Below, piece by piece: positions 15,414 to 58,236 of a stretch of DNA of 64,000 nucleotides. The translations under genes and the position numbers were made by a program. Where the stretch lies: assembly GCF_003073135.1 (NCBI RefSeq), contig NZ_PGDQ01000013.1, positions 1 to 64,000 on the forward strand. The letters are read 5' to 3'. Within the stretch, counting starts at the first letter, position 1. Each line of letters starts with the position of its first letter. A model generated the notes under the pieces. That model was not told where the DNA came from and did no database searches. It worked only from the letters and a program-made list of their open reading frames with translations. This DNA is from Euzebya rosea. Lineage in GTDB: Bacteria; Actinomycetota; Nitriliruptoria; Euzebyales; Euzebyaceae.

Positions 15414-17006
15414 CTACTCCAGGCCGGGCAGCCACCGCCGCACGTCGGCCTCGATGTCGATCGTCGCGCCCAGCCGGCAGAGCACGCCGACGATGCCGAG
15501 CCAGACCCGGTGGGTGAAGAGGTGCTCGGCCGGCATGGTCAGCTGCAGGGCGACCGCGAAGTCGGGGTTCCGCGGGTCGCCGAGCCGTCCGAACTGACCC
15601 CGCAGCCACTCCGGGGTGAACGTGAAGGTGTCGTGCCGGCTCGGTTCGGAGAACGGGGCCAGGTAGTCGCGCAGCTTGACCGCGTCGACCTCGGCGCCGG
15701 CCCGCACGAACCCCTCCGACTGCAGTCCCCCGAGCGTGGCCTCGGCGTCCTCCTCGCGGAGCAGCGTGATCAGGCGACCGAACGTGCGGGGCATCCCGTC
15801 GGGCATCGGCAGCGCCGACCCGAAGTCCAGCACGCCGAGCCGCCCGGACTCGGGGTTGGCAGCGTCGGGGTTGGCAGCGTCGGTGTTGGGGTCGGTGTCC
15901 GGACCCTTGGGTGGGAACCAGCGGAAGTTGCCGGGGTGCGGGTCGGTGTGCAACCAGCCGGCCAGCTCGGGCCCCGACAGCAGGAACCGTGTCCACGCCC
16001 GCCCGGCCGCGTCCCGCGTGGCCTGGTCGACGGCGTGGCCGGCGTGGCCGGCGGGTTCGGCGGGGTCGCCGGGTTCGGCGGGGTCGCCGGGGCGGCGGCC
16101 GTCGCTTTCCCAGGCGGTGTGTCGTCGAACCGGCTGCCCGTCGTCGTTGGGCGACACACCCGGGGTGTCCCGGCCGGTGGTCCGGTCGGTGTGTCGTCGA
16201 ACCGGCTGCCCGTCGTCGTTGGGCGACACACCCGGGGGAGTGGGGGGTCGCGTGGCCAGCGCGGTGAACGGGATCCCGTCCAGCCAGTCCATGACGAGGA
16301 CGCGGCGGGTGGCGAGGTGCACGGCGGGGATCACCACGCCGGGGTCGTCCTCGTACGCCGCGCCGAAGGCACGCTGCACCTCGGCCTCCCGGCGGTAGTC
16401 GAGCTCCTCCACCAGGCGCTCGCGCATCTCCGCCACCAGCGGCGGCAGCGCCATGCCGGGAGCCAGCGCCGAGGCCAGCCGTGTCATCGTCGACACGATC
16501 GACAGGTCGACCCGCAACGTCTCGGCCACCTCGGGGTACTGCACCTTGACCGCCACCGCGCGTCCGTCCGGCAACGTGGCTCGGTGGACCTGCCCGATCG
16601 AGGCGGCCGCCACGGCACGCTCCTCGAAGGTGCCGAACCGTCGACGCCAGCGGTCGCCCAGCTCGGCGGCAAGGACGGGCTCGACCAGCACGAACGGCAG
16701 GGGAGGGTTGTCGGCGGGCAACGCGGCGAGGGCTCGAGCCCACGTCGCGTCGGGGTCGGCGGGGAACAACGCGTCGACCGTCGACAGCAGCTGGCCGGCC
16801 TTGAGCGCCCCTCCCCTCGCGTCACCCAGGACCGACCGCATGCGATCGGCGGCGCGTCGACGAAGGTCGGCCCGGACGTCCTCGGCGTCCGCCCCTCCCG
16901 CCCGTCGGGCCAGGCCCACCACGCGGTCGCCGATCGATCCGACGGGCAGCGCCGACAGCTGGACCGTGCGGCGGACGGTCCGCGGCAGGCTGTCGCGGAC
17001 CGCCAC
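15414..17006 (-). CDS. ABC1/UbiB (AarF)-family atypical kinase with repeat-expanded insertion
   Basis: A 530-residue UbiB/ADCK-family protein. Family hallmarks are GGALKAGQLLS (KxGQ motif), AAASIGQVHRATL, AVAVKVQYPEV (ATP lysine), VEELDYRREAEVQ, LHTDPHPGNFRW (catalytic Asp and Asn) and LGVLDFGSALP (DFG-like). Between VMDWLDGIPFTAL and the catalytic loop is an extra segment of roughly 60-70 residues. It is made of two identical GVSPNDDGQPVRRHT units 24 residues apart, GDPAEPGDPAEP, and, after the loop, DAANPDAANPESG. The GTG start directly abuts the stop of the upstream permease gene, so they form an operon. UbiB-type proteins support quinone or isoprenoid lipid metabolism; here the role is unknown. 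Confidence 0.85.
   Translation of the reverse strand: MAVRDSLPRTVRRTVQLSALPVGSIGDRVVGLARRAGGADAEDVRADLRRRAADRMRSVLGDARGGALKAGQLLSTVDALFPADPDATWARALAALPADNPPLPFVLVEPVLAAELGDRWRRRFGTFEERAVAAASIGQVHRATLPDGRAVAVKVQYPEVAETLRVDLSIVSTMTRLASALAPGMALPPLVAEMRERLVEELDYRREAEVQRAFGAAYEDDPGVVIPAVHLATRRVLVMDWLDGIPFTALATRPPTPPGVSPNDDGQPVRRHTDRTTGRDTPGVSPNDDGQPVRRHTAWESDGRRPGDPAEPGDPAEPAGHAGHAVDQATRDAAGRAWTRFLLSGPELAGWLHTDPHPGNFRWFPPKGPDTDPNTDAANPDAANPESGRLGVLDFGSALPMPDGMPRTFGRLITLLREEDAEATLGGLQSEGFVRAGAEVDAVKLRDYLAPFSEPSRHDTFTFTPEWLRGQFGRLGDPRNPDFAVALQLTMPAEHLFTHRVWLGIVGVLCRLGATIDIEADVRRWLPGLE
15856..15900. repeat. in-gene 15-bp tandem repeat
   Basis: The unit GTTGGCAGCGTCGGG is present twice in tandem with a decayed third copy. 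On the coding minus strand it gives the repeating residues DAANP within the UbiB-like gene. Confidence 0.7.
16021..16094. repeat. in-gene tandem repeats (18-bp and 9-bp units)
   Basis: An 18-bp unit (GGGTTCGGCGGGGTCGCC) occurs twice and encodes GDPAEP-type repeats; a 9-bp GTGGCCGGC unit next to it encodes AGH-type repeats. Both lie in the same insertion of the UbiB-like kinase. Confidence 0.7.
16117..16231. repeat. two identical 43-nt palindromic elements inside a coding sequence
   Basis: Identical 43-nt elements at 16117-16159 and 16189-16231, with a 72-nt period. Each has 8-nt arms GTGTGTCG and CGACACAC around a 27-nt centre, and further pairing (TC, AAC with GTT, GG) extends the stem inward. 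Both are followed by CCGGGG. They lie in frame in the UbiB-like gene and encode GVSPNDDGQPVRRHT. A similarly built 43-nt element occurs at 58140-58182. Confidence 0.85.
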
Positions 17007-58133: not shown

Positions 58134-58139
58134 CCCCAC

Positions 58140-58182
58140 GCGTGTCGTCCGGCACGCGCGGGACGCCGGTGGTGCGACACGC
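58140..58182. repeat. 43-nt palindromic element after cobA/hemD
   Basis: Arms GCGTGTCG (58140-58147) and CGACACGC (58175-58182) enclose a 27-nt centre that has its own CCGGC/GCCGG stem. Total length, arm core and centre length equal those of the two elements in the UbiB-like gene at 16117 and 16189. It lies 7 nt beyond the stop codon of cobA/hemD, so it may act as a terminator. Confidence 0.7.
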
Positions 58183-58236
58183 ATCGGGGGTGTGCTTGGA
58201 TCGCCCCGTCCGCACGCAACGACGAGGAGCAGCACG

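Follow-up and report, generated by a model that had tools for sequence, protein, structure and literature searches.

Why does a gene for a UbiB-family kinase-like protein carry the same palindrome twice within its reading frame? The gene is located in a 64,000-nt stretch of Euzebya rosea DNA, the whole of which was analyzed and is called the window here (contig C13; the genome comprises 5.51 Mb in 40 contigs). A sequence-only reading of this DNA had claimed that two identical palindromes 72 nt apart had entered the gene in frame, and that they might represent a short mobile palindrome of the lineage that tolerates coding positions. The features concerned are as follows.

15414..17006, minus strand: ABC1/UbiB (ADCK) atypical kinase-like gene, 530 aa, carrying the paired palindromes in frame
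16116..16160, plus strand: palindrome copy 1, type A, 45 nt; core GTGTCG-N27-CGACAC at 16119-16157; read on the coding strand as the second GVSPNDDGQPVRRHT
16161..16187, plus strand: spacer separating the two palindromes; between loci, the spacer length is kept and the sequence is not
16188..16232, plus strand: palindrome copy 2, type A, identical to copy 1; core at 16191-16229; encodes the protein's first GVSPNDDGQPVRRHT

The product of the 530-aa ORF was matched to Pfam ABC1 (E 2e-47). The two in-frame palindromes were present as described, at 45 nt each; both have the sequence GGTGTGTCGTCGAACCGGCTGCCCGTCGTCGTTGGGCGACACACC, their starts are 72 nt apart, and translation of the coding strand yields GVSPNDDGQPVRRHT twice, N-terminal to the HTDPHPGN motif. 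A search of the whole window for the 39-nt core, with up to three mismatches allowed, returned these two places against a chance expectation of 0.

The sequence-only reading had allowed for an ancient protein feature, found at equal length in distant homologues. However, the UbiB segments of two congeners (G001 and G002), which are 62-77% identical, both lack the insert. The sister species (G003) has an insert of similar length. Two types of palindrome interior were distinguished, type A (GTGTCGtCGAACCGGCCACnnGTCGtgGTTGGcCGACAC) and type B (GTGTCGGGtnncGGGCCGCCCGTCGtgATCnCCCGACAc), both flanked by complementary arms; the insert is a type A pair in the window and a type B pair in G003, where the spacing is also 72 nt. 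The notion that the G003 insert is a merely decayed version was rejected because it is a type B pair. Judged from these sequence comparisons, the UbiB insert is new in this lineage. In a structure prediction made from six sequences, residues 252-323 had pLDDT values of about 25-39, and the flanks were well predicted; such very low confidence is what a disordered loop would give, and the insert region is predicted to be one. Two further repeat tracts were noted in the same gene, and both are missing or shorter in the congeners: 9/18-nt repeats (GDPAEPGDPAEP) adjoining the insert at 16031-16098, and a 15-nt repeat (DAANPDAANPE) beyond HTDPHPGN at 15850-15889.

Many copies of the palindrome were found elsewhere in the genome, so that the other eventuality considered at the outset, a sequence confined to this gene, does not apply. 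A genome search with the element-end pattern gave 58 forward matches (2 for the reversed control), and the consensus of the type A 39-nt core was found 37 times with up to three mismatches (control, 0). A covariance model of the family, built from 61 copies, had about 100 matches each in the window's genome and in G003; in G001 and G002 it had no significant match (best E 0.08), and types A and B are absent from both of these congeners. In a census of the fetched loci, no fewer than 63 copies were counted here, distributed over 43 loci, and no fewer than 68 in G003, over 35 loci; both copy counts are lower bounds. The lineage family with genic and intergenic copies that had been proposed from the window is therefore real. 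Base pairs at the stem edges vary on both sides, and the covariation score was higher than those of all shuffles and all slid controls, in a set of copies that are related to one another. The hairpin energy is -27 to -28 kcal/mol on one strand. The exact type A and B patterns had no outside match in GTDB contigs, a search from which records very near the window's genome may be excluded; type A was not found in viral contigs, nor the palindrome element in plasmids, and no curated Rfam family matched the palindromes. In G003, the region of contig C1 from 2.73 to 3.41 Mb held no family copy among the matches listed, and copies are frequent elsewhere.

The invariant part of these elements extends beyond the genus. 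Among all GTGTCG-Nn-CGACAC arrangements in the fetched DNA, a length of 39 nt occurred at 98 places and other lengths at 1 to 4 each, except for 58 nt (8 places, all of them one IS end inserted in palindromes). Of 61 related genomes searched for the frame GTGTCG-N27-CGACAC, eight had 12 to 85 matches and the others 0-2, as in the control (0-2). G000 (this genome), G001, G003, G008, G012, G015, G017, and G022 carry the frame; G002, G004, G006, G011, and G013 are among those that lack it. Within the genus, the counts were 52 here, 85 in G003, 15 in G001, and 0 in G002; in five genomes from another family of the order, they were 59, 22, 16, 12, and 12. The interiors are unrelated between genera and specific to each lineage. 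The family is defined by its frame (GTGTCG, 27 nt, CGACAC; 39 nt in all), usually inside longer complementary arms, and not by its interior. The window contains one further member of this wider class.

58139..58183, plus strand: single member of the 39-nt frame superfamily, with another interior, directly after a stop codon; an array in G003

This element (core from 58142) had been suspected of kinship with the UbiB palindromes. It has the 39-nt length and the GTGTCG/CGACAC ends, with an interior that is neither type A nor type B; the ends alone, at one fixed length, are expected about 0.04 times in the window. Because the orthologous site in G003 carries an array of such palindromes, the element is considered a genuine relative. 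In another genome of the class (G015, L162-L181), the 39-nt palindrome is located within a larger mosaic intergenic repeat that is bounded by ATTCACGTGTCAG and present in many near-identical copies; this mosaic repeat is a recently active family.

Members of the family are usually paired. Direct (head-to-tail) pairs 72-74 nt apart make up most of the G003 loci and about half of those in this genome. Of 53 neighbor distances, 49 were 72 or 73 nt at clearly intergenic or intragenic loci, two more were 72 nt at unclear gene ends, and the others were 74 and 77 nt; all pairs were direct. Spacing was exactly 72 nt in 8/8 clear intragenic pairs, compared to 7/43 intergenic ones (p 1e-5), and thus the reading frame selects 72. 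The spacers between cores (33-35 nt) have little likeness between loci, and the flanks within one locus are alike only for about 9 nt next to the core. For this reason, tandem duplication of the whole 73-nt unit was rejected; nor is there a visible sign that pairs transposed as single units, since the spacers of different loci are unlike beyond these ca. 9 nt. The spacing itself has been kept: it shifted by more than 1 nt in 0/18 orthologous pairs between this genome and G003, whereas the distance from element to stop codon (taken by hand from the locus table) did so in 15/22 flanks (p 4e-6). Other periods were encountered with other interiors or genomes, namely 50 nt for a further interior type in G003 (L070, L154, L155, and L156), 62 nt in three cases in G008, and ca. 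40 nt in G015. Successive values in the series 40, 50, 62, and 73 nt differ by roughly one helical turn, a suggestive regularity drawn from only four values.

Comparison of the sister species showed where change has occurred. Every strong pair locus examined has an occupied counterpart in G003 (that of L031 being a decayed type B pair), and few loci differ in presence between the two genomes; one unit or the whole locus was lost at L018, L087, L088, L094, L067, and L091. As pair loci are common to both species, the family spread before the species split and has since been mostly inherited. The suggestion of a currently mobile element is not supported, because almost every pair locus is shared. 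For roughly half of the type A loci, G003 has type B in both copies (the window, L020, L021, L022, L025 twice, L026, L032, and L031). Mean identity was 0.91 within pairs and 0.78 between orthologues, and it was higher within the pair at 18/23 loci. Copies of one locus therefore evolve in concert, and inheritance between the two sister species is mostly vertical. This concerted switch of type, the constant pairing at 72-74 nt, and the exact 39-nt frame across genera go beyond what had been read from the window.

With respect to genes (taken from codon-usage calls, so that gene ends are approximate), most copies are intergenic, and the distance from a stop codon to the core is often 3 nt, which is also its mode. 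Gaps that contain an element were more often convergent (29/64) than the other gaps in the same DNA (48/254; p 2e-5), and elements are present in divergent gaps too. Intragenic copies occur on either strand and in several frames, in the genes for UbiB, an ABC transporter membrane protein, a 641-aa protein, a 522-aa protein, and others; queA contains a single copy.

The palindromes are also targets of another element. Nine copies of an IS30-family element (L153-L161), present only in G003 among the four genomes of the genus, are situated in or directly beside GTGTCG..CGACAC palindromes at 9/9 sites, usually near the axis; the element's own end contains CGACAC. Two or three of these sites revealed further palindrome interiors. 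The RAYT-type transposase that had been thought worth seeking was not found: the RAYT domain Y1_Tnp (PF01797, the sole transposase family searched genome-wide) was detected in 0/4 genus genomes, and the control was positive in 10/14 genomes. Thus, the initial picture of a mobile lineage palindrome holds as regards a lineage family that tolerates coding positions, but not as regards a RAYT or current mobility. In both sister species, a gene of atypical codon usage encoding AbiEi_4 and DUF559 domains has palindrome pairs on both sides (L025:2555-3475, minus strand; L062:2104-2832, minus strand), an arrangement reminiscent of RAYT genes flanked by REPs. As a RAYT-like partner, DUF559/AbiEi was set aside as a weak lead; DUF559 genes are also present in G002, which lacks the frame.

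Several known classes of repeat were compared with this family. REPs are palindromes of 20-45 nt that form dimers, occur near gene 3' ends, have in-frame intragenic copies, serve as IS targets, and fall into lineage-specific types (Di Nocera 2013, PMC3733652; Bertels 2011, PMC3116915; PMC1525189). All of these features are shared by the present family (short palindromes, dimers, stop-codon proximity, in-frame copies, IS attack, and lineage-specific types), as are the tens of short, mostly extragenic copies that mark REP and REPIN families. However, REP/REPIN dimers are inverted (HH or TT), and head-to-tail dimers are missing or negligible in REP families (PMC3733652), whereas all dimers here are direct at 72-74 nt. 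The GTAG or CGTC end tag of REPs is also lacking; the ends are GTGTCG/CGACAC, and CGTC occurs only inside the unit. GTAG REP families are accompanied by a RAYT transposase, and none was found here. Other differences are the fixed GTGTCG-N27-CGACAC with a free interior and the almost entirely vertical inheritance of the loci between two species. Rickettsia palindromic elements (RPEs), as summarized in a later account, are about 150 bp long and encode a conserved peptide (PMC10969869, citing Ogata 2000, 2002). So far as that summary describes them, they share with this family the in-frame insertion of a palindrome into unrelated protein genes. The likeness to RPEs drawn by the sequence-only reading is upheld in this respect, since palindromes were found in frame in UbiB, queA, ABC transporter, and other genes, and the UbiB genes of the congeners have no insert. 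In contrast to the RPEs of that description, the unit here is 39-45 nt with another interior, is read on either strand and in different frames, is mostly intergenic, and usually forms a spaced pair. The RIME elements of Rhizobium and Bru-RS of Brucella are about 105-110 bp long and contain two palindromes. They are generally described as conserved over their full length, in contrast to the present family, in which conservation is limited to the palindromes and the distance between them. Neisseria dRS3/NIME repeats have conserved inverted ends and variable interiors and are targets of other elements, but as generally described they differ in end sequence and spacing and have no common 39-nt frame. 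dRS3 has been classed as a CGTC-1 REP (PMC3733652). The present family is filed as REP-like, not as REP or RPE. To our knowledge, its combined architecture (direct pairs, a fixed frame, and an inferred recognizer) has no precedent.

The two UbiB palindromes probably form a pair within a REP-like family of short palindromes interspersed in the genome, with a putative trans-acting recognizer, and are probably a tolerated insertion. The explanations against which this was weighed account for parts of the evidence. Sites for a host protein of DNA architecture or chromosome organization, kept by selection and changed in concert when the protein's specificity shifted between lineages, would explain why the frame and spacing stay constant while flanks shift, why positions are conserved between the sister species, and why the periods are roughly one helical turn apart. 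Yet types A and B are absent from G001/G002 and the frame from G002, which indicates that there is no core function; copies decay or vanish at single loci, and insertions are found inside unrelated genes. We regard such sites as an unlikely explanation. Bidirectional terminators or mRNA 3'-end hairpins are improbable. They would fit the cores that follow stop codons by a few nucleotides at many loci, the convergent-gap enrichment, and the stable one-strand hairpin, but no T tract is present in the flanks, no terminator-like site was seen at the UbiB copies, copies are also situated in divergent gaps and within genes, and neither the 39-nt frame nor the 73-nt period would be required for termination.

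Movement by a RAYT (TnpA-REP) transposase, as for REPIN/REP elements, would account for the palindromes, dimers, 3'-end positions, in-frame copies, and IS insertions, all known from REPs; it is very improbable, being already contradicted by the missing Y1_Tnp protein and further by the direct dimers and the missing end tags. Extremely improbable are minimal CRISPR-like arrays, in which a Cas1-like integrase would set 2-3 repeats around 1-2 spacers of fixed length. The 39-nt repeats, alike within a locus, and the 33-35-nt spacers, unlike between loci, do have this appearance; however, the spacer is still homologous between the species at many orthologous loci, and more than 40 loci, in-frame intragenic copies, and switching of interior types also speak against such arrays. 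Finally, there is virtually no chance that an ancient repeat of the UbiB protein is palindromic by accident. The insert is found in both sister species, but its absence from the congeners and the lack of a family match in G001/G002 refute this idea, and the same DNA occurs between genes and in genes such as queA and that of the ABC transporter, on either strand and in several frames.

The family is accordingly read as a REP-like selfish or architectural element that is tolerated in frame in a predicted disordered loop. The occurrence among congeners is patchy, and copies are inserted within genes; both points favor an element that is selfish, or at least dispensable, over host binding sites, without certainty. 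The constant length, constant ends, and even pair spacing probably reveal a putative protein that recognizes the palindromes. Such a trans-acting protein would recognize two GTGTCG half-sites separated by about three helical turns, as well as neighboring palindromes separated by about seven, and it would act on pairs. Its activity may have disseminated the element in an ancestor that both species share. Likeness within a pair could be maintained by this protein, or by hairpin-templated copying or template switching between hairpins 73 nt apart. The UbiB copies would then be a tolerated insertion in a flexible loop, outside the kinase function.

A stronger version is a tentative and rather doubtful proposal. 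According to it, GTGTCG-N27-CGACAC would be the recognition unit of a putative DNA-binding or DNA-rearranging protein in part of the order, one that measures the 39-nt frame, works on pairs separated by a whole number of helical turns (approximately 40, 50, 62, and 73 nt), and actively rewrites pair interiors. If this were true, dozens of static sites would change type in concert while their ends and distance remained fixed.

Although interspersed palindromes are common, one can seldom see what determines their form. In this family, the ends, total length, and pair distance stay constant and the interiors vary freely and jointly, in several genera and within genes, which points to a specific recognizer; a comparison of genomes that have the frame with those that lack it could be used to search for this putative protein. 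The UbiB gene is a clear example from nature of a protein lengthened in frame by short selfish or architectural DNA, and the family exemplifies sites that are static in place while their sequence type changes in concert. As a minor observation, the cores of types A and B have an invariant GGCC in their interiors with GGGCCGCCCG as neighbors, which is reminiscent of the preferred sequence of DNA phosphorothioation in Streptomyces.
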